From Haloterrigena alkaliphila (GTDB taxonomy: Archaea > Halobacteriota > Halobacteria > Halobacteriales > Natrialbaceae): DNA of 64,000 nucleotides. Position numbers and translations under genes: made by a program. The DNA is taken from positions 1,922,001 to 1,986,000 of the forward strand of contig NZ_CP071462.1 of the NCBI RefSeq assembly GCF_017352155.2, given 5' to 3'. The notes under the pieces are model-generated. The model was given only the letters and a program-made list of their open reading frames with translations, had not been told where the DNA came from and did no database searches. Below are positions 28,909 to 53,027 of the stretch, in pieces. How positions within the stretch are numbered: position 1 is the stretch's first letter; each line of letters opens with the position of its first letter.

Positions 28909-28960
28909 GGCTCAGTTGAAGCCCTCAGTCGCCTACATCTAGCACTTGCTGAATACAGTG
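28909..28960 (+). repeat. IS6-type terminal sequence (single, remnant)
   Basis: GGCTCAGTTGAAGCCCTCA at 28909-28927 followed by TGCTGAATACAG at 28948-28959 matches, with substitutions, the ends of the cassette at 45626-47382. The orientation points inward to the right. No matching right end or transposase frame was found within the next kilobase, so it marks an old insertion that truncated the PIWI gene. Confidence 0.6.
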
Positions 28961-29106
28961 GATGAATTCAGCACAACAACAGCAATTATTTCGCGGCGAC
29001 ATCAGTGGACCAACCACTCACTACCGATGGGAACGGAATACCCCATTTAATCTCAGACGGGACGGAAATATCCGCACAGCAATGCTCTATGCAGAGGCGA
29101 TACTCT

Positions 29107-29262
29107 TCAGAAGATAACGTCCCAAGCGTGTCCGCAACTGCTGCACTCGTATGATCGTTTTATATCAGTATCTACTGCTTCCCAACTGACGACCTTTGCC
29201 CCTTCATTCAGACATTCAATGCAAATTCTAACCAAGGTGTTAACAAATTGGCATTCCGCCAT
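29107..29262 (-). CDS. Small zinc-ribbon protein
   Basis: A 51-codon frame missed by a length cut-off. It has two CxxC knuckles, ICIEC and YECSSCGHAWDVIF at the C-terminus, a pattern common in haloarchaeal small zinc-finger proteins. It lies in the AT-rich start of the accessory island after the IS6-type end. No promoter or partner is clear, so it might be a fragment of a longer gene. Confidence 0.45.
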   Translation of the reverse strand: MAECQFVNTLVRICIECLNEGAKVVSWEAVDTDIKRSYECSSCGHAWDVIF

Positions 29263-29674
29263 TATAGTTGCTCTCCCCAACTAGTTTGGTAGTGAGTGTT
29301 CACTCCAGTCGAAGCCTAATTGAATGGGTAGCGACAGTACTGACCTGAAGTTCCGTCATTACCCCTGCTTTGAGGAATTCACACTGCTCCCTAGTCCGGG
29401 AGGGGTGTGGACCAACCAGACGACACTGGGTGTCAGGAGGGATAGGGCCCTAAGGCAACTGCCAGGGCGAATGTCTCGAGAATGGGACTAATAGTTTCGA
29501 ATACAATTATGACATCTAATATATGTGTCGGTCATAAAAGAGGGTAGAGCGGCGGTGTCTGAACATTCCTGAAAATTACTGATACGTAAACAAGAACGTT
29601 GCCGTCACACGAAGTCCTCTGGATTCATCCCGGTTTTTCGGGCCCTCATTCTCTCCAACGCTCTGCCTAATCGC
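29263..29674. other. AT-rich gene-poor stretch
   Basis: About 410 bases with no supported coding frame on either strand. Composition is visibly more AT-rich than the first 27 kb. It has some dispersed short repeats (GGGAGGGG / CCTAGTCCGGG near 29395) but no clear dyad or IS end. Confidence 0.3.
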
Positions 29675-29878
29675 CTAATTCGTATTACAGCCCTCGTTAG
29701 GGCATCTCTCGCCGGTATCAGGATATCCCATCTGTTCCTGACACCCCGGACACTTCCCACGTTTCGGCATGGCTGGGTTTTCATCCAACAGCAAATAGAA
29801 CCCTCCGGTCACTATACACCCTCTACTGATCGACAAGTAGGTATGCATATCGGATGCTCTACCTTCTATCCATTCCAA
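29675..29878 (-). CDS. Putative small zinc-ribbon protein
   Basis: A 67-codon frame. The C-terminal part reads MPKRGKCPGCQEQMG, then GERCPNEGCNTN, giving CxxC and CxxxxC pairs that could bind zinc; the N-terminal half is unremarkable. The true start may be MPKRG, giving about 31 residues. It is downstream of the epoxide hydrolase on the same strand, separated by about 80 bases. Confidence 0.35.
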   Translation of the reverse strand: MEWIEGRASDMHTYLSISRGCIVTGGFYLLLDENPAMPKRGKCPGCQEQMGYPDTGERCPNEGCNTN

Positions 29879-29960
29879 GACAAATTTGGGACTGCGTGAT
29901 GAATACGCAGCATGTATTCAGTGATGAGTTCCACAGATGCGTCCCGTGAATGACTCCCCC

Positions 29961-31118
29961 TCAGCGGATTTTCTGAAAAAACGTCCGAACGTCTTCGACG
30001 AACAGGTCGGGGACCTCCATAGCGGCGAAGTGGCCTCCTTCCGGTTGCTCGTTCCACTGGATGATGTTGTACACCTCCTCCGCCCAGACACGTGGGGTTT
30101 TCATGATCTCGGCTGGATAGCGAGTGTGGCCAGTTGGAACGTCGACTGAATCGGGAATCGCTGCTCTATCGTCAGTTTCGTAGTACAACCGCATCGACGA
30201 GTTGATCGTCTCTGTGAGCCAGTAAATACTGATATTGTCGAGAAGGCGATCCCGATCGAAGCTCTCATCAAGATCGTCTTCACAGTCGCTCCACCCGTGG
30301 AACTTCTCGATAATCCACCCTGCGAGTCCAACGGGTGAGTCGGTGAGACCGTACGCGAGGGTCTGTGGCTTCGTCGACTGGAGTTCCTGATAGCCCGTCT
30401 CGTGGTCGCGGAACTCCTTAGTCTCGCGGTAGTCGGCCATCCCTTGCTCGTCGAGGATCTCCATCGGATTGGAGAGCGATGACGGTTTCACGAACAGCAT
30501 GTTCGTGTGGATGGCGTCGACGCGATCAGGATAGTTCGCGCCGAGGATAGCCGTTATCAGCGCTCCCCAATCGCCGCCCTGTGCGAAGTAGGAGTCGTAT
30601 CCCAATTGCTCCATTAGTTCAGCGAACGTATCGGCTACTTCCCGGATTCCGTAACCCCGCTCGCGAGTGGATCCCGAGAATCCATATCCCGGGAGTGACG
30701 GCGCGACCACATGAAAGGCATCCGTTGAGTCGCCGCCGTGTGCGGCCGGATCGCTGAGCGGGCCAAATACGTCAAGGAATTCCGCAACCGATCCCGGCCA
30801 CCCGTGGCTCAACAGAAGTGGTCGTGCAGTTGGCTCCGGCGAGCGGATATGGTAGAAGTGGATTCGCTGGTCGTCGATAGAGGTTACATACTGTTCAAAC
30901 TGATTGACCCGATCCTCGAAGGCATCCCACTCGTAGCCCTCACACCAGTGCTCACACATGGTTTGTAGGTATCCCCGTTCGGTGCCGTATTCCCAATCTG
31001 CATCGGGGAGTTGATCTGGCCAACGCGCGTTCTCTAGTCGTGATTTGAGATCGTCAATTTCGGTTTGAGCGACGGTAACATCGAACGGCTGGATCGTTTC
31101 GTCATCCGCTGGCGTCAT
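29961..31118 (-). CDS. Epoxide hydrolase (EHN-type alpha/beta hydrolase)
   Basis: 385 residues. The N-terminal EHN domain starts PFDVTVAQTEIDDLKSRLEN and includes RWPDQ. The alpha/beta hydrolase core has the oxyanion motif HGWPGS (105-110), nucleophile Asp183 in GGDWGA and catalytic His in EGGHFAAME near the end. It should open epoxides to diols through an alkyl-enzyme ester. It is an isolated gene in the accessory region; similar genes are frequent on haloarchaeal replicons. No epoxide-forming enzyme is close. Confidence 0.9.
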   Translation of the reverse strand: MTPADDETIQPFDVTVAQTEIDDLKSRLENARWPDQLPDADWEYGTERGYLQTMCEHWCEGYEWDAFEDRVNQFEQYVTSIDDQRIHFYHIRSPEPTARPLLLSHGWPGSVAEFLDVFGPLSDPAAHGGDSTDAFHVVAPSLPGYGFSGSTRERGYGIREVADTFAELMEQLGYDSYFAQGGDWGALITAILGANYPDRVDAIHTNMLFVKPSSLSNPMEILDEQGMADYRETKEFRDHETGYQELQSTKPQTLAYGLTDSPVGLAGWIIEKFHGWSDCEDDLDESFDRDRLLDNISIYWLTETINSSMRLYYETDDRAAIPDSVDVPTGHTRYPAEIMKTPRVWAEEVYNIIQWNEQPEGGHFAAMEVPDLFVEDVRTFFQKIR

Positions 31119-31423
31119 AGTACACCCGCAATGACTTGGTCGCCGGTTAGTCTGATGTGCATACGGTCCTTAGACGGCCCGCTCAAATAAACGGGACTAT
31201 CCTGGTGAACTCATCCTCTATATTCCGCAGACCAAGTTCGACAGTTCTCAGACATATCTACAATCGTTCCGGTAACTGCAGAACCTATACTGAACACTGA
31301 TTTGGCCGCAATTCACTGGAAAGAAAACGACGATCCGTTCTGTAGATATACAAAGAATGTGCAACATCTCACCTTAATAAATAATAGCAACAATATTTTG
31401 TTGGGTCACCACAATATCATAGT

Positions 31424-31627
31424 ATGGCTGAACTATGTCTTCGATTCGGTGGGTATCAGGATATCAAACTTGACGAGATTGATATTGGGGTGGCGGATGG
31501 GGTTATCGCGTTTGATGTCTCTGGGCGGATAGTTAACCTCGACGAAGCCGTACTGAGTCAAGTCGCTGGAAAAGAATGGAAGCCAACCGAATTGCGGATG
31601 GAATCGCGGAAAATTTCTTCAAATTAA
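31424..31627 (+). CDS. Hypothetical small protein
   Basis: A 67-codon frame starting MAELCLRFGG, slightly acidic in the middle and Ser/Lys-rich at the end. It lies in a 576-base gap (31119-31694) that otherwise holds only AT-rich DNA. No family recognised; it could be chance. Confidence 0.3.
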   Translation: MAELCLRFGGYQDIKLDEIDIGVADGVIAFDVSGRIVNLDEAVLSQVAGKEWKPTELRMESRKISSN

Positions 31628-31694
31628 CCACCAGAAACCCATACGGAATGATAAAATGTAAGATTTATACATGCCGTGGTGAGAAGTGTTCGCA

Positions 31695-31952
31695 ATGGTA
31701 GACCAATCAAAGACTGATGGTGGTAATCAGGGGTGGAGCGACGGTTCAACACCCAGCGAAGCAGTCATTGAAACGATAGCCAAGGAAACTGCCAACGACC
31801 CCCTCGAATTGCCGCCATTAAGCAATGCTATTGACCCTGAAGCCCTTGATCGCTTGTTTGATAATCGACAAGGTGGGACCGTCACATTCTGCTGCTGTGA
31901 ATACGTAATAACCGTCAAACCGGACGGAACGGTTGCTATCCACGAGAGATAA
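31695..31952 (+). CDS. HalOD1 output-domain protein
   Basis: 85 residues from ATG 31695. The body SEAVIETIAKETANDPLELP, then the LSNAIDPEALDRLF and VTFCCCEYVITV segments, matches the haloarchaeal HalOD1 output domain, found alone or at the end of signalling proteins. The TATA-like GATTTATAC (about 31663) lies 25-30 bases upstream, favouring ATG 31695 over GTG 31686. Function unknown, presumably regulatory. Confidence 0.85.
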   Translation: MVDQSKTDGGNQGWSDGSTPSEAVIETIAKETANDPLELPPLSNAIDPEALDRLFDNRQGGTVTFCCCEYVITVKPDGTVAIHER

Positions 31953-32050
31953 CCTCCTATCAATTATGCACATAGAACAGACCACAGAAAGATAATAGAA
32001 GTTTGCTTCCTCTGCTGGCCGATAGATGGGTTCCCTGTACTGAACGGCAG

Positions 32051-33274
32051 CTACGTATGCTTATCGACCGCCGAGGGTTCTACCAGTTCAAGGAGATGTT
32101 CCGATAGCCGTGCGAGATACAGGGTGCAGGTCGCGCACGGAAATTCTAATATACCCACGCATAATCTCTTGTACGAAAGGGCCACACTCGACCTACCCCT
32201 TCTACCCGCTTTTAATCGCGTGATGCTAGTGCGCTGCGCATCACAGCAACATATTCCGCTCCAATACGTCTCCGCATCTGGCATCTCCCACTCTGTCCCC
32301 GCCAACTCTGAGCTGAACTCCTCGGCGAGCAGCAACACCGCCTCTGCACTCGCCTTGTACGCCGCAACGGCTTCTTCTACGCTCGCCATGTTCCCTTCAT
32401 GCGCGACAGCGTTCCGCACGTCGTGCGTGTCCCCCTTCCACGCGTCGTACTCGTCCGTGTCGCTGAATACGAAATCGAGGTGTTGTCCGATAAAATTCCC
32501 TGCGATGTTCGAGATGTACTCGTACTCTCCGTTGTCCTTCTTCAACAAGTCCGCAATCTCATCGTCACTCCACCCACGCTCGCTGGCAACCACCTCGAAC
32601 GCATTCTTCACCCACAATTCAAAGAAACGCTCCGCATTCAACACCGCCAAATTCGCTTCCTGCAAGTCGATTTTGTCCTGTACGTCTAAACCAATCACCC
32701 CGGTGAGTGGCACACTCGACGTGTTCTGCATCAGCGCGTTCAACATGCGGCACTGCTCGATGTCAAGCGTCGCGTCTGGTACTTTGAGCGATCCCGGCGT
32801 GATCTTCCGATGTCGAGCATCTGTGTCACCATCTTCGTAGACGCTCACCAATTCAAACGTCACGAGCTCCTGCGGTGTGAGTGGGCGAATCCAGTAATAT
32901 TCGAGTGACACGCGATAGACGCGCAAGAATTGGTTCAGGAATTCTATCTCTTTCTCGATAAGCCACCCGTCGCGTCCCCGTAAATCCGACGTGAGCGCGT
33001 ACTGTCCATCTGATGGTTCAGGCGCTGCGGCGAGCACATCGTCTCCGATGCCGACGCGCACCTTCGTGTATGAGACGCTTCCAAGGCGGTCGTCGGCCGC
33101 CATCCCGAACGTTTCCCCGTCGCGCATCTCCACCGACTCGCGTTTGAATCGCAGTTCAGCAGTCTCACCGTCTATTGACGGGTAGAACCGCGCGGCTTCA
33201 TTCCCGTCGAACGAGTCCGGAGCTTGGAGGAAAAATGGGATGTCGAAACACACCCACTCGTATTGAATACTCAT
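32051..33274 (-). CDS. HEPN-like protein, function unknown
   Basis: 407 residues. Residues about 205-320 look like a HEPN domain: FFELWVKNAF, then DVRNAVAHEG with the Rx4H pair Arg287/His292 typical of HEPN ribonucleases and ApeA-like proteins. The N-terminal 200 residues form an unrecognised beta-rich region with a WIRPLTPQEL segment. After about residue 340 the sequence changes to a basic, Cys-rich tail (CCCDAQRTSITRLKAG) unlike the acidic body, suggesting a frameshift or fusion near the 3' end. It may be an RNA-targeting defence protein. Confidence 0.6.
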   Translation of the reverse strand: MSIQYEWVCFDIPFFLQAPDSFDGNEAARFYPSIDGETAELRFKRESVEMRDGETFGMAADDRLGSVSYTKVRVGIGDDVLAAAPEPSDGQYALTSDLRGRDGWLIEKEIEFLNQFLRVYRVSLEYYWIRPLTPQELVTFELVSVYEDGDTDARHRKITPGSLKVPDATLDIEQCRMLNALMQNTSSVPLTGVIGLDVQDKIDLQEANLAVLNAERFFELWVKNAFEVVASERGWSDDEIADLLKKDNGEYEYISNIAGNFIGQHLDFVFSDTDEYDAWKGDTHDVRNAVAHEGNMASVEEAVAAYKASAEAVLLLAEEFSSELAGTEWEMPDAETYWSGICCCDAQRTSITRLKAGRRGRSSVALSYKRLCVGILEFPCATCTLYLARLSEHLLELVEPSAVDKHT

Positions 33275-33353
33275 ATCGAGGCGAGCCCCTGCATTAAGCT
33301 ATGAGGGTGTAATAGAAAACTCCCCCAACCAAACAGGAATCGCTCAGTGCAAC

Positions 33354-33368
33354 CTCTGTATTCAGCAC
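33354..33368 (-). repeat. Partial IS6-type inner end sequence
   Basis: CTCTGTATTCAGCAC is identical to the inner part of the right end at 47326-47382, but the outer TGAGGG..CAACAGGGCC part is missing downstream. Likely a remnant of another insertion. Confidence 0.4.
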
Positions 33369-33499
33369 GTCATTCTTGCCAGGCGTTGTAGAGAGTGCAC
33401 ATCGCAGCGTTACAGCGACCACCTGTACTTGCTACAGTAGCTACCAAACCCCTTCGTCTTGGGCAGATCAGCAGAGCAGTGACGCAAGAAGAGATTGTA

Positions 33500-34060
33500 T
33501 TATTCGAGCAGTCCGAGATCATTGAGGCGGTTGGCGATCACAGTGACGGCCTGTTCGGCATCATTCACTTGTTTCCCACCAGTGACGACCAACTTCCCAG
33601 AGCCAAAGAGAAGGGCAACGACCTCTGGCTCGTCGAGTCGATACACCAACCCGGGGAACTGCTCGGGTTCGTACTCGATGTGCTCGAGACCGAGACCAAT
33701 TGCTATCGCATTCAGGTTGAGGGTGCGGCCGAGATCAGCACTACTGACAATGTTCTGGACGATGATTTCTGGATCTTCCTCAACCTGAATCTGGAGTTCA
33801 CGGAGCTTAGCGAAGACAAGGCTCAGACTCTCGTGGACAGCGTCAGTACTTTTTGCGCCAGTACAGACGATCTTTCCCGACCGGAAGATCAGTGCGGCGG
33901 ACTTGGGGTTCTGGGTACGGTAGACGAGACCAGGGAAGTTCTCAGGGTCGTAGTCAGCCCCCTCGAGATCTAATGAGACACTCTCAAGGTCGAGTTCCTG
34001 TCCAATACTGGTTGATGCCACTACGTTTTCGATGTTGATGCTGTCCTTGGGACCCGACAT
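33500..34060 (-). CDS. tbp: TATA-box-binding protein (TBP)
   Basis: A 186-residue TBP with two imperfect direct repeats of about 90 residues (NIENVVASTSIGQELDLESV / VQNIVSSADLGRTLNLNAI; PENFPGLVYR / PEQFPGLVYR; SGKIVCTGAKS / SGKLVVTGGKQ). It recruits TFB and RNA polymerase to promoters. It lies 311 bases after the AbrB-TFB fusion gene on the same strand in the accessory island, so it is an extra TBP, probably paired with that TFB. Upstream is a TATA-like box (TTATAT near 34091-34096 on the minus strand) and a dyad at 34109-34128. The Phe residues used for DNA bending in the repeats appear partly kept, but I did not map them all. Confidence 0.9.
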   Translation of the reverse strand: MSGPKDSINIENVVASTSIGQELDLESVSLDLEGADYDPENFPGLVYRTQNPKSAALIFRSGKIVCTGAKSTDAVHESLSLVFAKLRELQIQVEEDPEIIVQNIVSSADLGRTLNLNAIAIGLGLEHIEYEPEQFPGLVYRLDEPEVVALLFGSGKLVVTGGKQVNDAEQAVTVIANRLNDLGLLE

Positions 34061-34371
34061 AGCTTGTTCAACAAGATGGATCTAATATCCATATAACCCA
34101 GTGTCATAATATGGTATTTCTACCATATATGAGAAAAGTACTGTCAATTAGTCTCATACGCAGCAGAAGTTGATTCTGTTGAAATCCTGTTTGGTCTATT
34201 CTTATGTTTTAATACAAGAGGGATACCGGTAACAGGATTAAGACACAGAAATGTACCACCTTAGAAAGAATGGGGTACCCAAAGCCATCCATGAGTGCGT
34301 GAGTAGGAACTCCATGAGAGTGACCAAGAGTCAATCCATAGTGAACTGATTGAGGTGTCTAACCAACTAAA
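34061..34371. other. AT-rich upstream region of tbp
   Basis: 311 bases between the AbrB-TFB stop and the tbp start, without a gene. It carries the dyad at 34109-34128 and a minus-strand TATA-like box close to tbp. Confidence 0.4.
34109..34128. promoter_or_regulatory. Inverted repeat upstream of tbp
   Basis: ATATGGTA at 34109-34116 and TACCATAT at 34121-34128 form an 8-base dyad with a 4-base spacer, about 50-70 bases before the tbp start. It is a candidate operator, plausibly for the AbrB domain of the neighbouring TFB fusion, since AbrB/MazE domains autoregulate through dyads. Confidence 0.45.
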
Positions 34372-35406
34372 CTAGTTCTCCAAGTCTATACTTTCCATTG
34401 CTTCAATTTGTTCCTGATATCGGTTTTGGATGGTAGCCTCAGTGACCTGGGCTACATCTGCGACTTCGCGCCGTGTACGCATCTCGTTGCAGAGCAGTGA
34501 GGCGGCATAGATTGCGGCGGCGGCATAGCCAGTGGGCGACTTGCCAGAGAGTAGTCCCTCCTCGGCCGTCTTCTCGATGATCTCGTTGGCCTTGGTCTGA
34601 ACCTCATCGGACAGTTCGAGTTCAGAGCAGAAGCGCGGGACGTACTTTTTCGGGTCGACGGGACGCATCTCGAGTTCGAGTTCCTGTGAGAGATACCGAT
34701 AGGTTCGACCGATCTCTGTTCGTTCAACGCGGGACACCTCGGAGATTTCCTCAAGGCTGCGCGGGATGCCCTCTTTTCGGCAGGCAGCGTACAGTGCGGA
34801 CGTTGCAACCCCTTCGATTGACCGGCCGCGAATGAGGTCTTCCTTCAGCGCGCGTCGATAGATCACCGAGGCAACCTCGCGGACCGAACTCGGGACACCG
34901 AGCGCCGAGGCCATCCGATCAATCTCCGACAGTGCAAACTGTAGATTTTGTTCACCGGCGTCCTTGGTTCGGATGCGCTCTTGCCACTTACGCAGCCGGT
35001 GCATCTGGCTACTTTTCTTCGGCGAAATTGACCGCCCGTAGGAGCTTTTGTCTTTCCAGTCCACGGCAGTTGTAACACCCTTGTCACTCAACCAGTTTGC
35101 ATCAATAGTGTCGCGCTGATTTGTCGACTCGTCATCGAATACATCCGGTTCAACCTCGTCAGTGGCTTCAACAGAAACGTGTTCCCACTCCGTATTGACT
35201 CTCTTGTCCCGTTGTGCTGTTCTTTGATAAGCCGAAGCAAGGTCTTGCTCGTTACCTGATTTCCGTAATAAAAGATCTCCCCTCTCGTCAACTGTAAACA
35301 CTACTTCCTCGCCAGCCGTTAGACCGAACTGCTCGCGGAATTCGATAGGGATTGTAACCTGCCCTCTATCCCCTACCTTACGTTTAAACCGCTTTTCCTG
35401 CTCCAT
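34372..35406 (-). CDS. tfb: AbrB/MazE DNA-binding domain fused to transcription factor B core
   Basis: 344 residues. Residues about 6-50 are a swapped-hairpin AbrB/MazE domain ([20 protein letters not shown], then GEEVVFTV). Residues 51-105 are an acidic linker with no Cys. Residues 106-145 match the TFB reader/linker ([30 protein letters not shown]). Residues about 150-344 are two cyclin folds binding TBP-DNA. The usual N-terminal zinc ribbon that contacts RNA polymerase is absent and replaced by the AbrB domain. The gene follows mazF by 53 bases on the same strand and precedes tbp. The AbrB domain should act as antitoxin or dimeric DNA-binding module, while the core should still bind TBP. 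I know of no described protein with this layout, so its function is inferred. Confidence 0.88.
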
Positions 35407-35459
35407 ATCAATTCATACTTCGTTCATACCTAAAACCCTGGTGGACTCTCCGGTTTCAT

Positions 35460-35810
35460 TCATTCTAACCCAAGGCTAATTTTTATAGATTGATCTATCT
35501 CTTCCATTTTTTCTCTAGATACTTCACCAAACTTATGGACAATCCGTTCACTCATATCAACTGTTCGTATTTGGTTTAGAAGGACTACTGAATCCCTATC
35601 TACATCTTCTTCTCCGGCACGTAATTCCACTTCATAAGGCGCAATATCATTTGGGTCATAACTAGTTGTCATCGGTGCGAGAATAGTCGTGGGGGCATAT
35701 CTATTTCCTACATCGTTTTGGATAATGACTGCTGGACGCCTCCCTCGTTGCTCAGATCCCTTTGTCGGGTTTAAGTTTACTAAGACAATGTCTGCGCGTC
35801 TGATGTTCAC
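35460..35810 (-). CDS. mazF: MazF/PemK-type toxin (mRNA interferase)
   Basis: 116 residues with the MazF fold: IRRADIVLVNLNPTKGSEQ, RRPAVIIQND carrying the catalytic Arg near 24-25, and LAPMTTSY carrying the catalytic Thr near 48-49. MazF cleaves single-stranded RNA at short motifs. Usually a small AbrB-like MazE antitoxin is encoded beside it; here the only AbrB domain is the N-terminus of the TFB fusion 53 bases downstream. It is first gene of the probable mazF-tfb-tbp unit, divergent from a winged-helix gene at 36102. Confidence 0.9.
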   Translation of the reverse strand: MNIRRADIVLVNLNPTKGSEQRGRRPAVIIQNDVGNRYAPTTILAPMTTSYDPNDIAPYEVELRAGEEDVDRDSVVLLNQIRTVDMSERIVHKFGEVSREKMEEIDQSIKISLGLE

Positions 35811-36101
35811 AGCTATTCTTTAATCAGTTAGCCTCTGGTAAGTAGATGCAGGGTATTTTATGGATCTCTCTTAATTTGATACAGATTGTTAATCATCCTC
35901 GTCTAAGCCCAATCACCTGAGAGCTGGTTTTGGAGACTTAAGACCAGATGGTAGATAGATCCTCAATCGGTTTGTTACGTCGTTCGCCCATAACAGTAGT
36001 TGATAATATGACTTCTTTATTGAGTTCTGCGGCCGAAAAGACCGTGATCAATTATCTTACTCGAAGATAGAATCATTGCGCTGTATCGATTACAGGGAGC
36101 C

Positions 36102-36623
36102 ATGACCGACCAGAGCCCGGGTGTTGAAGCCTGGAAAGAACACACAACAGCGTTCGACCGGGTTCAATCAGTTGCGACTACAGTCTCCAAACCGCGCCCG
36201 GTATCGTATATCGCGGATGAGGCCCACGTCGCGGAGAATACAGCACGCGACCACCTTGAACGACTTGTCGCCCTGAACGTCCTGCTGAAGACAGAACGCG
36301 ACGATGGCGCGTTCTACTCCCCTGACCCGCTCTACACGCGGATACAAACGCTCCGAAACCTTCTCGAAGAGCATGACCGCGACGGGCTGATCGATCTGAA
36401 GATTGAGTTACAGTCCAAAATCGAAGACTGGGAAACTGACTATAACGCGGACTCGCCCGACGAACTCCGTACTCATTCCGCAGAGACGGAAACCGCTTCG
36501 CAGACGCGAGATCTCAAGAAAACCGCGAGTAACTGGGAACTCGCACTCTATCGTCTCTCAGTCCTTGAGGACGCGATCGAAAACTACGAAACGTACACCA
36601 CGGACTTTCGGGCATCTACGTAG
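36102..36623 (+). CDS. Winged-helix regulator-like protein (haloarchaeal family)
   Basis: 173 residues. Residues about 20-75 form a winged helix-turn-helix (SYIADEAHVAENTARDHLER, LLKTERDDGAFYSPDPL). The rest is helical with a coiled-coil tendency (RIQTLRNLLEEHD, LSVLEDAIENYE). Such stand-alone proteins are common on haloarchaeal mobile elements and often sit beside nucleases or toxins. It is divergent from mazF with a 291-base AT-rich gap, so it could control that unit. Confidence 0.75.
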   Translation: MTDQSPGVEAWKEHTTAFDRVQSVATTVSKPRPVSYIADEAHVAENTARDHLERLVALNVLLKTERDDGAFYSPDPLYTRIQTLRNLLEEHDRDGLIDLKIELQSKIEDWETDYNADSPDELRTHSAETETASQTRDLKKTASNWELALYRLSVLEDAIENYETYTTDFRAST

Positions 36624-42527: not shown

Positions 42528-43256
42528 ATGGCGAGTCCATGGCACGGGCTGTACCGGGTTCTTGACACACTTGATAAAAGCGAGCTACGGGCGATTCGCC
42601 GCCGATGTGACTGGTGTGAGGTGGATCCACCTGAAAAAGCAAAGACAGCCTTTTCCAAGCGTATCCGCGATTCTGCGAGAAGTTCCGTGGAGGACGGGGA
42701 TTACTCGTTTGAGCAAATCGTCCGGCAGATCCACGACGAGGTTCTCCGCGTAAGCCCGTATCTACCGGAAACTCGGATCAGACATATACTCCAGAAGACC
42801 TCGATCTGTGGGCATCACCGGCCGAAGGAAGTCATGGTATCCATGCAGATGTATGGGGCGCTTCGCAACGAGTTCGGGGACGACTATAAGGTATACCGTG
42901 AGCACCGTGTCCACGACCATACCCGGACGCAGTTCGATCTGTACGTTGAACATGTTCCGTCCAACAGTTGCTATCTGATCGAGACAAAGATTGCAGGTAA
43001 CCTTCCAAAAAACAAGGTTCTGGGGCAAGTATATAAGTATAATCGAATCCTTGATGAGGAAACAGAGAAGGACCGGGTGCGGACCTTTCTCTTCGTGCTG
43101 GCGGATGACGAGGACGAGTGGTGGGGGAAAATCGCACAGGACCAGGATGAAACACTTGGTGACCAGTTCCAACTATCACGGAATCTCGAAGAAGAGGTTG
43201 AGAAGCAGCCGAAAACAACGGTCATCAAACGCGTCCTTGACGAGGAGTTAGTCTAA
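42528..43256 (+). CDS. Putative PD-(D/E)XK nuclease
   Basis: 242 residues. The core FDLYVEHVPSNSCYLIETKI gives Asp137 and Glu152-Thr-Lys154, a PD-(D/E)XK signature, followed by GNLPKNKVLGQVYKYNR (Q-x-x-K-Y). The first 100 residues are a helical region with CDWCE. A nuclease with a helical DNA-recognition part is inferred; a restriction or anti-invader role fits the neighbourhood. A DUF-type non-catalytic relative cannot be excluded. Confidence 0.6.
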   Translation: MASPWHGLYRVLDTLDKSELRAIRRRCDWCEVDPPEKAKTAFSKRIRDSARSSVEDGDYSFEQIVRQIHDEVLRVSPYLPETRIRHILQKTSICGHHRPKEVMVSMQMYGALRNEFGDDYKVYREHRVHDHTRTQFDLYVEHVPSNSCYLIETKIAGNLPKNKVLGQVYKYNRILDEETEKDRVRTFLFVLADDEDEWWGKIAQDQDETLGDQFQLSRNLEEEVEKQPKTTVIKRVLDEELV

Positions 43257-43289
43257 CTATTTACTGAAGAGTATCGTCAGGGATCGGTT

Positions 43290-44102
43290 CTAATCGTCGT
43301 CTTGGGACCGTTTCCAGAGGAAATACACGATCCCGCCGACGACGACGATTAGGACAGAGGCAATAAGGAGTTGTTTGCCCAGTGAGAGGCGGAGAAATCC
43401 AGATACCCCGGTCCTTGCAGCGGCAGCAGCGCGTCCTGCAACCGTCTTCGTTGCGGTACCGATCCGCGACGCAGCACTGGTTATAGGCTTAGTTGCACCA
43501 CGTTTGATCCGAGTCCCCGACAGTTTCATCCGTTGGATCACCGACCAATCGTCGATCGTAACCACATCGATTCCGTATTCAGCCGGATCAACGCCATCCT
43601 TGAGGCCATTCGTGGTTGCGATTACGTCGACATCGGAATACTGCTCGAGAACCGATTCGCCGAGAGAGTCGGAATAATGCTTCACCTGCACCGTCTTCTC
43701 GCCTGCCGGCCCTTTGATCATCCTGTCGACCCCACCGTCAGGAGTGAATACGGAAGTCTCCTCCTCTACGATGGTTCCTCCGATATCACGTGCGTACGCC
43801 TTGGCATGCATCTGCTCCGCAAGCTCGGCCTCGGCATACCGATCCACACCTGCCCGTTCAGCCGCTGCCGTACAGGCCGAAGTTGCTGTTCCTGCGTTGA
43901 CCGCACTCTTACCAATTGATTCCAACCTATCAGATTCTGGATCGCCCAGTTCGGTCGATTCGTCTGGTTGAATTGTGATTTGAACGTTCTCGGCAGATTC
44001 GCTGTCTCCTGATTTCACGTCATCTACTTTTGACTTGGTTGCGCTGGCCCCGACTGCGAGCGCACCTGTCAGTGCGACGGCGCCTGCTAGAACGGGTATC
44101 AT
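43290..44102 (-). CDS. Membrane-anchored protein with Mrr-like (PD-(D/E)XK) domain
   Basis: 270 residues. It has an N-terminal hydrophobic segment (VLAGAVALTGALAVG), a C-terminal transmembrane segment about 243-265 (LLIASVLIVVVGGIVYFLW) and a charged end KRSQDDD. Between them, GGVDRMIKG and TVQVKHYS give Asp126, Gln139 and Lys141, then VDVIATTNGL and IDVVTIDDW, the layout of Mrr-type restriction endonucleases (D..QxK). The two membrane segments would place both ends at the membrane; which side the domain faces is not certain. Confidence 0.6.
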   Translation of the reverse strand: MIPVLAGAVALTGALAVGASATKSKVDDVKSGDSESAENVQITIQPDESTELGDPESDRLESIGKSAVNAGTATSACTAAAERAGVDRYAEAELAEQMHAKAYARDIGGTIVEEETSVFTPDGGVDRMIKGPAGEKTVQVKHYSDSLGESVLEQYSDVDVIATTNGLKDGVDPAEYGIDVVTIDDWSVIQRMKLSGTRIKRGATKPITSAASRIGTATKTVAGRAAAAARTGVSGFLRLSLGKQLLIASVLIVVVGGIVYFLWKRSQDDD

Positions 44103-45617: not shown

Positions 45618-45625
45618 TCTCTCTT

Positions 45626-45682
45626 GGCTCTGTTGAAACCCTCACTACCTGACAAGAGAGGTGTGCTGAATACAGAGCGCAT
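45626..45682 (+). repeat. Left IS6-type end of cassette
   Basis: GGCTCTGTTGAAACCCTCA at 45626-45644, a variable spacer, then GTGCTGAATACAGAGC (45663-45678). The consensus GGCTCTGTTGAAACCC resembles haloarchaeal IS6 (ISH14/ISH29-type) ends. Confidence 0.7.
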
Positions 45683-45785
45683 ATTCAACAGGGTGAAGGA
45701 ACCCTTTCCCGACTACCCTTCATATAACAACGGTGGATGTTCATCAAGTTTTGTGGTTTTCCAGCATTTCCGCTGAGAATCGAAA

Positions 45786-47177
45786 TTACTCCCGTTTCGA
45801 CAGACTACCTGAGAACTCACCCGCCGGTGGTTCACCAAACACGTCCTCGTACGATTCTTCAAAGACCGAGTTCATGAGCGTCAGCAACTGGGGGCTCTCA
45901 CTGCAAAACTCGTCAACGGCAGTAGTAACTTGGACGAAATAAGACGAGACCAAGTTCTCTGGATCGAGGTCGTAGTTCTTTGTGAACAGCGAGGAGGCCC
46001 TCTCCAGGTTAATCTCGTCCACATCCAGTTTCTCTAGTTCTCCACGGATTTCATCCTCATACTCTCCCGTACACTTCTCGGTGAACACGGCATTAAACGA
46101 CCCGTCTCCTTCGAAGGTTTGCTTGTGGACTTTGCGCTGCGGTGGCAGCCGCAACCGGAACGAGAGTTCCTGGTTTCGCAGTTGCTCGGTCGTAGATGGG
46201 ATCCGGAAGTACAGTGCGATTGTACTGTCCCAGCCAAACGGATCCTGATCCCAGTATTCTGGCATCAATCCCTGCCACTTCGGGCTGTCATTAGACCGAA
46301 TCTTCCACCCGGACCCCGTCACACGGAACCGGTCCCGGATTTTATCCGCCCACTGAGCTGTGAGGTATTTGCTGACGTCGTCGAAATCGTTCTCGAATTG
46401 TCTGTGCGCTTGTTCCACTTGTTGGATGACGTCATCGTATTCGAAGTATAGTTTGAGGCGTTCGGTGAGTTCGTCTTCTTTGAATGGTGAGTCCATGTTC
46501 TCGGTCTCCTGTAGCGATTGGATGAAATCAGTGAACTGAATGACGCTCCGGTTCGGATACTGGAACAGCGAGCCTTGGAGTCGATGCTCGAACGTTTTTG
46601 CGATCGCCGCCCAATCAACCGCGTCAAATTCGTCGTCTTCAGGGGGTTCTGCTACCGCCTTCTTCACGTAGACATAGGTTGCCTCGTCAAGTTCGTCGAC
46701 ATTGATTTCGGTTGTGTCGAACCATGTGAATTGCCAGCTGTCTGCTGCGGTGTATGTTGGTGTCTGATTCTCGTTCTCGTCGGCGCCGACTTTCAACTCC
46801 AAGAATACCGCCCAGTCTGGGTGGTCGTCTAGGGCTTGCCCACCACAGATAACGAGGTCTATACGGCTATCCGAGCTCTCGTCTGCGATATGTACCTCTT
46901 CCTCAATCTCGACGTATTGGGCTGCAACGTTCAACTCGGGGACGTCAACAACCTCTAAGAACACTTCTAGGAAGGTGTCCCCGAAGCCGTGGGGCTTGTG
47001 TGGATCCAGGAAATACTTAAGCGTCTGTTGATACTTCTTCTCCCGTCGCCCGGATAGAAATGAAAATACGCCATACGGCTGTTGAGCTCGGCGATCGAGT
47101 TCCAGATACCGGTCGATGAAGTCCTCTATCCGCTCTGTATCCAACTCTAAAATATCCTCTCCCATACCTGCCCACAT
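45786..47177 (-). CDS. PD-(D/E)XK nuclease superfamily protein (PDDEXK_4-like), cassette cargo
   Basis: 463 residues. The nuclease core has Asp107 in SRIDLVI and Glu127-Leu-Lys129 in VFLELKVGADENENQ; ENQ and a following Tyr are typical of this family. The remaining C-terminal 300 residues include a long helical region (FEYDDVIQQVEQAHRQFEND) and a beta-rich part (TIALYFRIP, LSFRLRLPP) that may bind nucleic acid. It is the only gene between IS6-type ends, so it moves as cargo. A single-gene anti-phage or restriction-like function is inferred. Start may be Met5 (47165). Confidence 0.7.
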   Translation of the reverse strand: MWAGMGEDILELDTERIEDFIDRYLELDRRAQQPYGVFSFLSGRREKKYQQTLKYFLDPHKPHGFGDTFLEVFLEVVDVPELNVAAQYVEIEEEVHIADESSDSRIDLVICGGQALDDHPDWAVFLELKVGADENENQTPTYTAADSWQFTWFDTTEINVDELDEATYVYVKKAVAEPPEDDEFDAVDWAAIAKTFEHRLQGSLFQYPNRSVIQFTDFIQSLQETENMDSPFKEDELTERLKLYFEYDDVIQQVEQAHRQFENDFDDVSKYLTAQWADKIRDRFRVTGSGWKIRSNDSPKWQGLMPEYWDQDPFGWDSTIALYFRIPSTTEQLRNQELSFRLRLPPQRKVHKQTFEGDGSFNAVFTEKCTGEYEDEIRGELEKLDVDEINLERASSLFTKNYDLDPENLVSSYFVQVTTAVDEFCSESPQLLTLMNSVFEESYEDVFGEPPAGEFSGSLSKRE

Positions 47178-47524
47178 CCTTCGTGACTTCCATTAAACTA
47201 CTCCTGGATGGCAATCACTGCATAGATCCTTCCCTTCCAATCGGGTACTACATTCATATCCCCGTACAAAGTTTGGATTAGATCTCTTCAGCTGGAATAC
47301 GTAGGAACCAAGTGTTGCGTACAAGCTCTGTATTCAGCACTGTTGCTGAAAACTATCAGCAATTGAGGGTTTCAACAGGGCCCCTCTCTTCTATACTGAT
47401 CACGAATCTTCCACTCTGCTCTGGATAAAGAAACCAGTAATGCGAGTGGATCGATCAGTGGGCCCTGAACGTTAGCATCGCCGTGACGGCGTCTCTTCTC
47501 AGTCATAACATCGTTTACCTACCC
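47178..47524. other. Cassette right flank and intergenic space
   Basis: Contains the promoter side of the nuclease gene, the right cassette end (to 47382), its target duplication and about 130 bases before the helicase stop. No gene seen. Confidence 0.4.
47326..47382 (-). repeat. Right IS6-type end of cassette
   Basis: Read on the minus strand: GGCCCTGTTGAAACCCTCA (47382-47364), a short hairpin TTGCTGA..TCAGCAA, then GTGCTGAATACAGAGC. Inverted relative to the left end. Confidence 0.7.
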
Positions 47525-50500
47525 TCAGTTGTCGCTGGACACCTCCTCGTAGCCGTCAAACGTGTAAACACGGAATATCGTGCCCGTGGTCTCACCCTCG
47601 CCGGTCGTGGCGGGGCCACCCTTGGTGGCTGTCGCGTGCAAGCCCTTCCAGATTTGGGCGTCCTGATAGGCATCCTTCTCCTGCGGAACCAGTTCGAACA
47701 GCGACTCGGGAGCGACTACGACGAGCTTTTTCTTCATCCGTGAAAGCGCGACGTTGAGTCGGTTCGGATTCATGATAAAGTCACTCTCGAGGTCGAGGTA
47801 GGAGGGGTCGCTGACGGCGGCGGAGACGACGATGCACTCACGCTCATCGCCTTGGAACCGCTCGACAGTGTCCACGTCCACGTTGTCGCCGGTGCGGGCC
47901 CCAATGAGGGCCTTCTGCGCATTGTGTGGGGTGACGACGCCGACGCCCTCCTCGCCCGGTACCAACTCGCAGAGCCGACTGACGAGGTTGGCTTCCGTCT
48001 CGTTGCGCTGCTGACTGCCGCGATCATCGTGCGTGATGAGGATCAGCGGCGACTCCTCGAAGACGGGATGTAGCGCGTCGGGCACGTCGCCGTCGGCGGT
48101 CTCCAGCGTCGAGTCCACGTCGGAGACGTATTTGATGCCGTCCTGCTCGTACATCCAGCGGCGGAGGAACTCCGTGACGTCGAGGTGGCAGCGATACGTC
48201 TTCCGCAGCCGCGTGAACTCGATGCCATCTGCCTCCGGCGAGTCCTCGTCGAAGAGGTCGTGCCGCTTGAGCCGCTCGACGTCATCGCCGCGCAGGTACC
48301 GGCAGAAGTTCAGCGCCGAGAGGAACGCCGCCGACTGGATCGTAGGCGTGCGATCCTCGTCGATCCACCCGCGTTGCTGTACCGGCGGCATCTGTCGATG
48401 GTCGCCCGCGATGACCGTCTGGGCGTCCTCCGTGATGAGTGGGCTCGCCATGAACAGCTGTGGAAGCGTCATCATGGACGCCTCGTCAACGGCCAGCAAG
48501 CTGAACAACTGGGGCGAGGTACTGTAGGCTGCGGATGGAGCTTCGTTGCCGTCGTAGAGTTGCTTGGTGAGCTTGAAGACGGACTGTGGCGTGGCGAACA
48601 CGATGACCGACCGCACGTCGTCGAGTTTGGCGGTCCAGAGCGCCCGGACGAGCCAGCTCATGTCGCTGCTGTTGCTGGTGTCGAGGTACCGTACGTCGTC
48701 GTTCCCGCCGTCCGACGGGTTCTTGTCGAGGCGGACGAGCTGAACACCCTCGACATCACCGACGTCTTCGTTGAGGCACCACTCGTGGAGGTGGACGGTT
48801 TCATCCAGTACCTCGTCGATGGCGGTGTGCGTGGGCGCAGCGATGAGCCCATTGAACGGTTCCTCGTTGGCGAGGCGGCTGCTGGCGCGGGAGAGCAAGC
48901 CCGGTGCGAGCGATCCCTTTGTCTTCCCCGTTCCGGGCGGGCCCTGCAAGAGACTCAGGTTGACGTCGGTCTTCTCGATAAACTCCCGCTGCTTCTTGTT
49001 GGGCGCGACGAACTCATCGTTGTCGCTGGCCTCGGCCGCCTCCTCGAGGTCGTTAAGGAAGTCCTCGACGCCGGCGGTGTCGAAGCCGCTTGTCACGAGA
49101 TCGGCGGGGGTGTACGAGCCGGTGCGGATGGACTCTATCAGGTCGTACAATTGGTTGCCGTCTGCGCCGTTGAGCGCGTGGTTGGCGCGGGCGGCCCCGA
49201 TGGTCATGTCGTCCTCATCCAGCAGGAGCAGGTCACCCTCGTTGATGGTACACTCGTAGCCGTTCTCAGCGGGCTCGCCGAAGCGGGGCGTCGGGTACCA
49301 CTGTTCGTACTCGTCGTTGCGCCACCACATCTTGCTGGCCCCCTCAAGGTGGATGATGCCGGCGTCCCAGTCGAGGTTCTCGATGCTGAACCGGGGCGCG
49401 TTGCTGACCGACCACTCGTCGGTGTCGACAGCCAGTTCGCCGGAGTCCGCCGAGAGTTTTGAGGCGGTGACGAACGGGCCATCGACGCGGCAGGCCTGCT
49501 CAAGGAGTTCGCGGTTCTCGCCGTCGAGGGCGCGGTGGTCGTAGGCCATTTCTGCGACGACATCACAGGCGTCCGACTCGAAGGACTCGACTACGACCGG
49601 GATCGCCCGCCCGGTGCGGATGCGTTCGAGGACGGGCTTGTCGCGCCGCCGTTCGAGTTCACGGAGCGATGCCTCGTGTTCAAGGTCGACCACATCACTG
49701 CCGCAATCGGCCAGCGAACGGCTCTCGCGGTTGCCCAGTTCTACTTCGAGCCGTGGCAGATTCGCCGGCAGCGGGTGCTTCTCGACGGTGCTGTCCTTAT
49801 TGAGTATTTTCCCGCAGAACTTCAGATCCCGCTCAATGTCGCGGAGAGCGAGCGCGAGCCGCTCGCCGAGTTCCTCGATGTCCCCCTTGTAGATGGGGAG
49901 TTCCTCCTCGCTGGAGTCGACCCAGACGAAACGATTGGAGAGCCCCTCGAATCCTTCTTCAGTGTCTTTCCACTCCTCGTACGGTACGTCAATATCCGTG
50001 GCTCCCCAGAAGTACTCGACAGGGAGTTGTGAGCGGTTCCGCGCCCGTGTTGGATAGTAGACGTCGTGGCTCTCCTCGCTGTCGCTGACGAACTCGAAGG
50101 AGCCGTCTGCCCGCCTGCGACCCGGGGCGGAACGGGTAATGAACTGGTAGGCGAACTCGTCACGAAGGTCGACCGTCTCGTCGTCCGCGGCCCGCGTGTG
50201 CTGCCAAAACTCCTTGTCGTATCCAGCGACTTGGTCGTGGGCGTGCGGGATGCCGTAGCCCGGATCGGCGAACGCGCAGTGGTTCCTGAGCGCGGGCTGG
50301 ACGACGCTGACCATCGATTGCTCTAGGTGCGGCACCGAGTCCTTGATGCCGCCGCGCAGGTCGAGGACATCCCGTAGGATGCGGCAGGCGTAGCGGTCGT
50401 CGTGCCGCCGCAGGGCGTCCGTAAGGGAACGCCGCTCTCCTTCGCTGTGCAGGTAGAAGTGATACGAGGTTTCCTCTTTGTCGACGTTGATCTCGCTAGC

Positions 50501-52003
50501 GACCTGTTCGATGGCCGTGAATGCAGCCTCGGCAAACGTCTCAAGACGTTCACCTTCAATGTCGGCATACTCGCTCTCGTCTTCCGGGATTTTGTCAACG
50601 GCCGTCGAGAACGAGATGATGTTCTTGCGAGGGTCGTAGTCGTCATCGGGGTCGTCGGGATGGAGCCGACCGCAATCGACGGCGGCACTGAGCATTAGAG
50701 TTCGTTCGTTGATGTAGTCCATCTCCACATTGAGGTAGACACGGATCAGCGAGTCCTGCGGGATAGGCAGGTCAACATCCCAGCTGTCCGGCGGGTCGTC
50801 GTTTGGGAGGTCGGCCTTGCCGCTGCCCTGCAGCCAGACCTTCCCCTTCCAACCGGCCTCGCGGTTGGCGAGCGGGTGGGACGGGTTGAGCTTGCCGAGT
50901 TTGGCTTGCGCCCGTTGGGCGGTGAGTTGCATCTTCTCGGAGACACGCAGGTCACCGTTCAATTCCTGCACCACGTCCTCGTAGCCGTCGCGGACGGCAG
51001 GCAGGTCATTGTAGGGGCGCAGGTCATCCGGTTGCTCAACGAGTGCGGCGACGTCCTTGAGCGTGTGGAGGTCTTGCTCGCGGTAGGCCATCTGTTCGGG
51101 CAGCGACAGGCCGAGGAGACTGATGTCTTGCTGCTCGACCGCGATGATGTAGAAGTACTCGCCGTACTGGGATTCGTGGGCGGCCTTTCCTAGCTCGAAC
51201 ATCGGCACGTCCTCGCGGCCGAACACCTCGTTGAGAAAGCCGTCCTCGGCGAGCAACCGCCGAATGTCCTCGCGGCGGGACGCTGGGTTGAACGACGGCA
51301 GCTCCTCGTAGTCGAGAAAGTTGATGCTAGTGTCGCCGTCGATGATGCCTGCCGTGAGATCGTACTCTACATCCGTCCCTTCGTCGAGGATCTTGTTGAT
51401 GATCGTCGAGTAAAAAACGGCCTGAAGCTGATGGTGAGGCTTCTCTTCGCCCGCTTTCACGTCCATTGCCCGAATGTGGACAGCGGCGTCAGTGTCGTCG
51501 TCGGGCTTCGCCGGCCAGACGACCACGATGTCGGCCTCGCTGTTGATCGGGAAGTCATCGATCCAACCGTTGAGGTCGGGATTAACGAGCAGGGCTGGGC
51601 CGTGGGTACTTCCGCGGGCGACGCGCTCGATGGTCTCGATGATCTCGTCGTCACTGAAGTCGGGATCACAGACTGCGTCTGGGTGCCCGGAGAGGTCGGG
51701 CGCGTTCTCGGCAACTTCCCAGACGCGGACAACTCCGGCCATGGGGGCGAGTTGCTCGACGACGTGTTCCTCGTGCTTGTCGCCAAGCGTTGTGAGCGCC
51801 GGCGCGGGAGCATAATCGGGCTCCACTAACTTCTCATCGGAGACGGGGGGTACCCCGCGTTGATTGTCATCACGGGAGAGGAACTTCAGGTCCGTGAACA
51901 GTGTTGACCTACTGAACTGGACTACTTCCGTGACGTTGGATGGACTAATGGGCTCTTTGCCCTTGTCCCCGCTATCTCTATCTTCGTTCGGGTTTGGTGT
52001 CAT
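47525..52003 (-). CDS. RecB/Cas4-type nuclease fused to SF1 (Dna2/Upf1-like) helicase
   Basis: 1,492 residues. The N-terminal part holds a RecB-family nuclease: His80 (EEHVVEQL), Asp158 (SEADIVVV), Asp181-Val-Lys183 (MDVKAG) and QLQAVFY at 192-198. A central region of about 700 residues has no clear domain. The C-terminal part from about 1000 is an SF1B helicase: QGPPGTGKT near 1020, LLAVDEAS, GDHRQMPPV, RKTYRCH, GVVTPHNAQKA, VERFQGDE and NVALSRMKKKLVVV. This layout resembles Dna2 and single-protein defence helicase-nucleases. Its start overlaps the upstream recombinase gene by 26 bases, so they form one transcription unit. A defence or plasmid-maintenance function is inferred; repair is the alternative. 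Confidence 0.85.
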   Translation of the reverse strand: MTPNPNEDRDSGDKGKEPISPSNVTEVVQFSRSTLFTDLKFLSRDDNQRGVPPVSDEKLVEPDYAPAPALTTLGDKHEEHVVEQLAPMAGVVRVWEVAENAPDLSGHPDAVCDPDFSDDEIIETIERVARGSTHGPALLVNPDLNGWIDDFPINSEADIVVVWPAKPDDDTDAAVHIRAMDVKAGEEKPHHQLQAVFYSTIINKILDEGTDVEYDLTAGIIDGDTSINFLDYEELPSFNPASRREDIRRLLAEDGFLNEVFGREDVPMFELGKAAHESQYGEYFYIIAVEQQDISLLGLSLPEQMAYREQDLHTLKDVAALVEQPDDLRPYNDLPAVRDGYEDVVQELNGDLRVSEKMQLTAQRAQAKLGKLNPSHPLANREAGWKGKVWLQGSGKADLPNDDPPDSWDVDLPIPQDSLIRVYLNVEMDYINERTLMLSAAVDCGRLHPDDPDDDYDPRKNIISFSTAVDKIPEDESEYADIEGERLETFAEAAFTAIEQVASEINVDKEETSYHFYLHSEGERRSLTDALRRHDDRYACRILRDVLDLRGGIKDSVPHLEQSMVSVVQPALRNHCAFADPGYGIPHAHDQVAGYDKEFWQHTRAADDETVDLRDEFAYQFITRSAPGRRRADGSFEFVSDSEESHDVYYPTRARNRSQLPVEYFWGATDIDVPYEEWKDTEEGFEGLSNRFVWVDSSEEELPIYKGDIEELGERLALALRDIERDLKFCGKILNKDSTVEKHPLPANLPRLEVELGNRESRSLADCGSDVVDLEHEASLRELERRRDKPVLERIRTGRAIPVVVESFESDACDVVAEMAYDHRALDGENRELLEQACRVDGPFVTASKLSADSGELAVDTDEWSVSNAPRFSIENLDWDAGIIHLEGASKMWWRNDEYEQWYPTPRFGEPAENGYECTINEGDLLLLDEDDMTIGAARANHALNGADGNQLYDLIESIRTGSYTPADLVTSGFDTAGVEDFLNDLEEAAEASDNDEFVAPNKKQREFIEKTDVNLSLLQGPPGTGKTKGSLAPGLLSRASSRLANEEPFNGLIAAPTHTAIDEVLDETVHLHEWCLNEDVGDVEGVQLVRLDKNPSDGGNDDVRYLDTSNSSDMSWLVRALWTAKLDDVRSVIVFATPQSVFKLTKQLYDGNEAPSAAYSTSPQLFSLLAVDEASMMTLPQLFMASPLITEDAQTVIAGDHRQMPPVQQRGWIDEDRTPTIQSAAFLSALNFCRYLRGDDVERLKRHDLFDEDSPEADGIEFTRLRKTYRCHLDVTEFLRRWMYEQDGIKYVSDVDSTLETADGDVPDALHPVFEESPLILITHDDRGSQQRNETEANLVSRLCELVPGEEGVGVVTPHNAQKALIGARTGDNVDVDTVERFQGDERECIVVSAAVSDPSYLDLESDFIMNPNRLNVALSRMKKKLVVVAPESLFELVPQEKDAYQDAQIWKGLHATATKGGPATTGEGETTGTIFRVYTFDGYEEVSSDN

Positions 52004-53027
52004 AATCGGATTTGATTGAGTCCAGTTTCGCGGATTCGAGATACGAGCGCCGCTGCTCTAGCTTTACCTCCTCTGATCGTCGGTCGTAGTGCTTATCTAG
52101 GATTTTTCGGCTGACATCCATCCGATCCCCGACGACTTCGGTTGGGACATCCTTCGTTAGAAAGTGGGTGATGCTCCCTCGTCGAACCGCGTGTGGAGTC
52201 ACTGCTTCGGGGCACTTCGCGTCTGTACTCTCCGCACAATCAGGACACTCCTCGTCGAGGAAGCAGGGTGCTGTGATATTGTAGACATAGCGGCGCATGC
52301 TACTCCTAGAGAGTCGTCCTTGACGACTCGTCAACAGGGGTTCACGCCCGGTATCATCGGTCTGATCAGGACGCGTATTTTCGATATAGTCCTCCAGTAA
52401 GATCGCTAAACCTGGTGAGATCGCCACAAGCCGTTCGCCACCAGTCCCATTTTTTAACGGTGTTCCCGTCTCCGGTCGGTGGCTAAACCTCAAGAACTCG
52501 TCCTCTAGATCGACATCCTGCAGATCGAGTGATTTGGCAGCGCCGATCCGAATTCCCGTCTCCCATAGCAGGGCGAGCAGAACGTGTTTGATCGACGCGT
52601 AGGAGAAATTCGAGAGGTACGACAGAATCTCCTCTGCTCGGTCTTTTTCTAGCAACTCGTCCCGTTGTTGCTCCTCCGTAGGGACCTGTGGGACCATGAC
52701 TTTGGTGTAGAGGTTCGGATCAACTGCTTCGATAGACCCACACCAGCGCAGGAACACTCGGATCGTACTCATCTGCGTTTGGAGCGAGACCGCGTTCAGG
52801 TCTCCGTCTTCCTTTCGCCAGAGGCGGTATTCGTGAATGTGTCGCCCCGTAAGGTCGTTCATATTGTCGATCCCCTTCTCGTCGCACCAGCGGACGAAGT
52901 GGTTCGTTCGGTATCGGTGACCCTGGACCGTCTTCTCCATCGCCTGGGACGCTTTGTGGTCGAGGTATAGTTGCTGCGCGGTACTCGGATCGATCGGATC
53001 GAGATTGTGGTTTCCGTCTTCGGACAT
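51978..53027 (-). CDS. Tyrosine recombinase (phage/XerCD-type integrase)
   Basis: 349 residues: an N-terminal SAM-like DNA-binding part (HRYRTNHFVRWCDEKG) and a C-terminal catalytic domain with Arg160 (WETGIRIGAAKSL), His279-x-x-Arg282 (PHAVRRGS) and Tyr314 (DKHYDRRSEE). A Cys cluster (FLDEECPDC, DAKCPEA) typical of haloarchaeal integrases lies before the HxxR box. It is encoded upstream of and overlapping the helicase-nuclease, at the right edge of the accessory island. It could mobilise the island or just the helicase module. No tRNA gene or attachment site was recognised next to it. Confidence 0.88.
   Translation of the reverse strand: MSEDGNHNLDPIDPSTAQQLYLDHKASQAMEKTVQGHRYRTNHFVRWCDEKGIDNMNDLTGRHIHEYRLWRKEDGDLNAVSLQTQMSTIRVFLRWCGSIEAVDPNLYTKVMVPQVPTEEQQRDELLEKDRAEEILSYLSNFSYASIKHVLLALLWETGIRIGAAKSLDLQDVDLEDEFLRFSHRPETGTPLKNGTGGERLVAISPGLAILLEDYIENTRPDQTDDTGREPLLTSRQGRLSRSSMRRYVYNITAPCFLDEECPDCAESTDAKCPEAVTPHAVRRGSITHFLTKDVPTEVVGDRMDVSRKILDKHYDRRSEEVKLEQRRSYLESAKLDSIKSDYDTKPERR

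Follow-up and report, generated by a model that had tools for sequence, protein, structure and literature searches.

The window, that is, the whole stretch of 64,000 nucleotides of Haloterrigena alkaliphila DNA that was analysed, contains at positions 45626-47382 an element of 1757 bp in which one PD-(D/E)XK nuclease gene is enclosed by inverted ends. The left terminus reads GGCTCTGTTGAAACCCTCA from 45626 and the right terminus GGCCCTGTTGAAACCCTCA from 47382 on the minus strand, with 18 of the 19 outer bases identical between the two. Each end consists of two blocks and forms an imperfect palindrome, GCTCTGTTGAA ... TGAATACAGAGC. The L-type end (45626-45692, plus strand) combines an outer repeat at 45626-45644 with the inner block TGCTGAATACAGAGC at 45664-45678, and the R-type end (47317-47382, minus strand) an outer repeat at 47382-47364 with an inner block at 47339-47325, the spacing between blocks being 19 bases in L-type ends versus 24 in R-type ends. 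An inverted-repeat search recovered the termini as arms of 27 nt with 85% identity, and a second pair of arms (28 nt, 82%) corresponding to the inner blocks with TGCTGAATACAGAGC. End models trained without the ends of the host genome scored 64.5 bits for the L end at 45626 (E 3.6e-19) and 63.3 bits for the R end at 47382 (E 7.2e-19), compared to a best score of 10.0 bits in 50 dinucleotide shuffles of the window. The element is flanked by TCTCTCTT on the left (45618-45625) and CCTCTCTT on the right (47383-47390), within a CT-rich stretch; these octamers match at 7/8 positions and are read as the two copies of a target-site duplication, given their sequence and the 8/8 duplications present on other such elements.

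The first-pass annotation had already described the coordinates, the single enclosed gene, the inverted ends with their inner blocks and the 8-base flanks, and all of these were recovered. It had also called the element a MITE-like carrier, a term that is apt for a single-gene, transposase-free unit with transposon ends and inapt in that a MITE is short and non-coding, for the element has 1757 bp and a 463-aa gene. What is found instead is the set of features expected of a mobile insertion cassette (MIC): inverted IS ends, a passenger gene without a transposase and a target duplication (7/8).

Degenerate ends of the same family were observed elsewhere in the window, at 28909-36312, where a full-length L-type end at 28909 and partial ends near 29900, 31220, 33360 and 36290 are interspersed with an epoxide hydrolase, a 407-aa gene of no assigned family and a TFIIB protein; this region is perhaps a graveyard of older cassettes. 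The N-terminus of the TFIIB-repeat protein (34372-35406) matches MazE/AbrB (PF04014, 50.3 bits). Beside the cassette, at 42528-44102, lie a 242-aa gene with an ETK motif recognised by eye and a 270-aa gene whose match to Mrr_cat is very weak (E 0.09), possibly further nuclease-like genes. Positions 47525-53027 hold a 1492-aa AAA_11/AAA_12 helicase adjoining a tyrosine integrase (51978-53027) and possibly represent an integrated island; no tRNA gene was found in the window.

The cargo nuclease and its relatives

The sole long ORF inside the cassette (45786-47177, minus strand) encodes 463 aa from its first ATG. Translation probably begins at Met-5 (47165), giving 459 aa, because this alignment column hardly varies and both nearest homologues have 459 aa. 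The protein matches PF14281 (PDDEXK_4) with 35 bits (1.8e-8), above the curated cut-off of 22.3, and carries the catalytic residues of the family (E46, D107, E127-x-K129, Q138). Across 19 aligned haloarchaeal homologues, E46, D107, E127, K129, Q138 and Y142 are invariant, as would be expected for a RecB-like PD-(D/E)XK nuclease with a QxxxY motif. An AlphaFold model (pLDDT 81.6, pTM 0.50) gave no significant match when searched against PDB structures (best E 0.27), and so does not strengthen the assignment as a nuclease. Thirteen PDC-S26 models of PADLOC also matched, the best with 45 bits (E 1.9e-12) and mostly with partial coverage; a DNA nuclease of this group is the most likely identity of the cargo. 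It resembles the PDC-S26 phage-defence candidates and PF14281 proteins in its N-terminal nuclease domain and catalytic residues, but differs in that most matches span only residues ~16-230. With these partial PDC-S26 matches, the label of putative defence gene given in the first-pass annotation stays plausible. A putative role in defence, perhaps against viruses, is a guess from family resemblance to which we would give even chances. The term PDC-S26 was absent from the literature searched.

A relative with 89.3% protein identity is encoded on plasmid NZ_CP100402.1 of Halorussus aquaticus (Haladaptataceae), which belongs to a different family from the host of the window. This gene is also flanked by cassette-type ends (locus L295, positions 3792 and 5613), and comparison with the window gave identities of 89% for the CDS, 78% for the upstream spacer, 74% for the end and 36% for the outer flank on that side, versus 32% for the spacer and 47% for the end on the CDS-downstream side. 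Homology stops at the outer base of the element; with respect to the gene, L and R types have changed places, and no matching duplication was found at the Halorussus copy. Since identity is high in the CDS, the upstream region and one end, and low outside, the comparison indicates that these three parts travelled together and that the downstream end is a different one. A more distant 460-aa nuclease of the PF14281 family (L053, genome G005) also lies between such termini, in a unit of 1847 bp in total for which no matching duplication was found. The two next-closest chromosomal relatives, in genomes G013 (64%) and G114 (58%), showed no such ends, and in G013 an IS5 copy stops 0.6 kb short of the nuclease.

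A family of cassettes across the Halobacteria

A DNA search across the host's family found matches in 83 of 125 genomes, most of them consisting of the two ends alone. With an end model (R1) built from 24 ends, 349 of 391 Halobacteria genomes gave at least one end at E <= 1e-3; no more than 14 places were scored in any one genome, a ceiling that many of them reached. A strict end pattern searched in 84,980 species genomes returned 20 stretches, all haloarchaeal, and it matched 45 plasmid records, which were all haloarchaeal among the 40 matches listed; the left end was found in none of the phage records. Among the sampled loci, 55 inverted end pairs yielded 33 distinct elements with duplications of at least 6/8, the window's included. 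This count leaves out the 22 pairs with a duplication no better than 5/8, which may include duplicates. The duplication was 8/8 in 23 elements, 7/8 in 9 and 6/8 in 1, while a random 8-mer would be expected to agree at 7 or more of its positions in roughly 4 of 10,000 cases (calculated for uniform bases). The sequence of the duplication differs between cassette copies, and 31 of the 33 elements have one L and one R end.

The first-pass annotation had proposed looking for other cargo between the same ends, and this was found in abundance. The elements range from 463 to 4977 bp, and their cargo includes an MMPL transporter, a tyrosyl-tRNA synthetase with a regulator, an amine oxidase, a GYD protein, an HNH endonuclease, a universal stress protein, a cupin with DUF998, a BrkB-like protein, a RibD_C protein, an SBF transporter, regulators and many unknowns; MITE-sized elements with no ORF of 70 aa also exist (L020, 463 bp). 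Of 40 cargo proteins scanned, 24 matched Pfam at 1e-3, some of them under the curated cut-off, and none was a transposase. This set includes some proteins from pairs outside the 33 elements (L053, L080, L132, L178, L186, L063) and omits small or doubtful ORFs (e.g. L065, L066, L195, L204, L242). As many single genes are carried by the same ends, ordinary genes seem to travel one by one, and the spread between genomes claimed in the first-pass annotation is upheld by the 33 sampled elements and by the Halorussus aquaticus copy.

Several individual units deserve mention. In the host genome, L012:1501-2713 (G000:C1:3276490-3277702) is flanked by an 8/8 duplication and carries a gene with a lysyl-oxidase domain, and in the cassette-like unit L132:13923-15389 one R and one L end enclose a DnaJ-DUF5797 protein, with no duplication detected. 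The Natrialba sp. SSL1 cassette L062:1875-3544 contains a tyrosyl-tRNA synthetase and a small regulator; this cassette (genome G046) was considered as a carrier of an essential gene and discarded as such, the synthetase being an additional copy beside the native one (75%). Related cargo genes of no assigned family, recognised by eye, recur in two genomes (L064:2219-3016 and L233:3945-4871).

Traces of insertion were visible at some loci. Dropping the element together with one copy of the duplication restored a multicopper oxidase at L240 and a full IS5 transposase at L226, with PF07732 and PF01609, respectively, spanning the junction. At L254, a PQQ beta-propeller protein is continuous across the junction with a spanning match below the cut-off, and at L165 a fourth ORF is continuous, without a Pfam match. 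At the site of the cassette itself, joining of the flanks produced no ORF of 100 aa across the junction, and the empty site that the first-pass annotation had suggested seeking was not found, a DNA search of 125 genomes revealing none with both flanks.

The above data bear on the possibility that two unrelated end remnants flank a resident gene by chance. Such ends are abundant in haloarchaea, further degenerate ones are present in the window, and the duplication is 7/8 instead of 8/8. Against this, the cassette has one L and one R end, both strong and in the right orientation, with a near-perfect 8-base duplication, and the Halorussus homologue has the gene and an end at the same place between unrelated outer flanks. 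Moreover, no orthologous locus carrying the gene in the absence of the ends, an occurrence that the first-pass annotation had named as contrary evidence, was found among 125 genomes, the end-less relatives lying in other surroundings. On balance, we consider chance flanking improbable.

The source of the ends

The ends had been attributed to the IS6 family, which would make the cassette a unit bounded by the ends of an IS6 element and moved by an IS6 transposase. IS6 termini start with GG...CTGTTG, as those of the cassette do, and IS6 elements also make 8-bp duplications; in addition, the host genome contains 4 IS6-type gene matches. However, the search for full IS6 elements bearing the cassette termini failed: the IS6 loci of the host's family mostly have GGCACTGTCTAGTT termini (33 loci inspected), and a second IS6 clade has GGCCGTGTTTAGTT instead. 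No IS6 or IS1595 gene was found inside the duplication-verified cassettes at the loci tested, a scan of viral contigs with IS6 transposase gave no match, and the cassette ends are shared with IS5 genes instead. With the termini differing in both clades examined, IS6 was rejected as the source, and an IS6 origin is very unlikely. IS1595 was likewise discarded, its termini being CGCTCTT....

The link to IS5 emerged only when the scan was loosened to inverted termini that resemble GGCTCTGTTG and are accompanied by an 8-base duplication. In two elements, L237 and L244, one end bears a transposase of ~284 aa and the opposite end is of the cassette's R type, and L230 is a remnant of an element with both transposase and R-type end. 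The ~284-aa protein is an IS5 transposase according to NCBIfam (NF033579, 203.6 bits versus a cut-off of 140) and also contains PF01609. Among 37 distinct copies of this transposase in the sampled loci, the proximal end is present in 35, and 16 form complete elements, with proximal and distal end and an 8/8 duplication; in 5 of these 16 the distal end is a two-block R-type end (inner block within 3 mismatches). ISHla2 and ISHxa2, as annotated, begin with GGCTCTGTTGAAATCCT, a proximal terminus that they share with the cassette, and they differ from it in having their own transposase; no duplication was found flanking the two annotated copies. Thus, outer termini and 8-bp duplication are common to the cassette and to the ISHla2/ISHxa2-like elements with an IS5 transposase. 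All elements on which the L-type end was seen lack a transposase, the IS5 proximal ends having just the outer ~17 bases in common with it, and both full two-block ends were not seen together on one transposase-bearing element. Since only the R-type end occurs on IS5 elements (5/16), the claim is restricted to the ends being IS5-type and does not extend to a known full parent element. Judged by these termini, the ends belong with IS5 and the IS6 label is wrong.

Besides the transposase, the complete IS5 copies contain a further 170-1478 bp. An ORF is often present there, and it varies from one copy to another even where the transposases are alike; in L260 and L271 the extra space is occupied by another transposase. 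In this variable passenger space they resemble the transporter IS (tIS, a term taken from the available part of the IS6 review PMC7986276), which has a transposase, unlike the window cassette, which lost its own or never had one. The same part of that review names one IS6 member with a passenger gene.

It is similarly very improbable that the palindromic two-block ends are integrase recombination sites of an integron-like, site-specific gene cassette, because, even though each end has an imperfect palindrome and the cargo consists of diverse single genes, the ends are inverted and not direct, IS5 elements have the same end, and 8-bp duplications varying between copies are found where integron gene cassettes have attC, an integrase and no target duplication. 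Together, the varying duplications, the inverted ends and the IS5 elements with the same end argue for DDE transposition.

Proposed mechanism and comparison with known systems

Taken together, these results make it highly probable that the element is a non-autonomous transposon of the mobile-insertion-cassette type, with a single gene between the ends of a haloarchaeal, ISHla2/ISHxa2-like IS5-family element. An IS5 transposase supplied in trans would recognise the GGCTCTGTTGAAAYCCTC termini and move the whole cassette as a unit, leaving 8-bp duplications. Genes would be captured when an IS5 element, or a single end, pairs with another end past a neighbouring gene; we infer both this pairing of distant ends and the exchange of single ends from the comparison with Halorussus and from the cargo space that IS5 copies contain. 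The first-pass annotation had invoked a resident transposase, but no intact IS5 transposase of the ISHla2/ISHxa2-like group was found in the host genome. An IS5 query gave one match (E 3.7e-38), and only a 107-aa IS5 fragment (60% identity, in L132) and one other DDE_Tnp_1 protein, of 561 aa and recovered with PF01609, were detected. With no full partner evident, present mobility of the cassette in this genome is doubtful. The cassette may have reached it by horizontal transfer, its partner having since been lost or never having been resident.

A broader reading, plausible though to our minds slightly short of even odds, is that of a class-wide haloarchaeal gene-packaging system, in which an IS5 lineage with varying passengers coexists with a much larger transposase-free set with standard L and R ends that picks up single ordinary genes (for nucleases, transporters, regulators and enzymes), swaps single ends and spreads the genes between families, thereby filling in part the role of integron cassettes in bacteria. 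If the IS5 link is true, it offers a concrete route of one-gene horizontal transfer in archaea, gene capture becomes testable with a defined end pair, and annotators could locate cargo genes via the ends; the family label is in any case corrected from IS6 to IS5. No description of IS5-ended cassettes in haloarchaea was found in the literature searched, which left out most subscription papers, and in no relevant paper there did the terminal sequences of the cassette occur; the available parts of a MITE review (PMC10969869) and of a Thaumarchaeota paper (PMC6563490) hold no such description either.

Among known systems, the MITEs of Haloquadratum walsbyi, according to the available part of their description (PMC3119063), are transposase-free and have ends in common with a transposon, as the cassette does, but for the most part they have no coding capacity and do not exceed about 520 bp, as against 1757 bp and a full gene. 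The qnrD-bearing MIC of Proteeae, as far as set out in the available part of its report (PMC3913671), shares with the cassette a passenger gene, IS-type inverted ends, the lack of a transposase and a mobility in trans that is inferred in both cases. The cassette differs in its IS5 ends, in the inner block of these ends and the distinction between L and R, in the very varied cargo of its family and in a presence that is class-wide in haloarchaea. Relative to the known MICs, the surprising part is this scale and uniformity, with uniform-ended single-gene carriers occurring in roughly nine-tenths of the sampled Halobacteria genomes. The IS231 MICs are further known mobile insertion cassettes.
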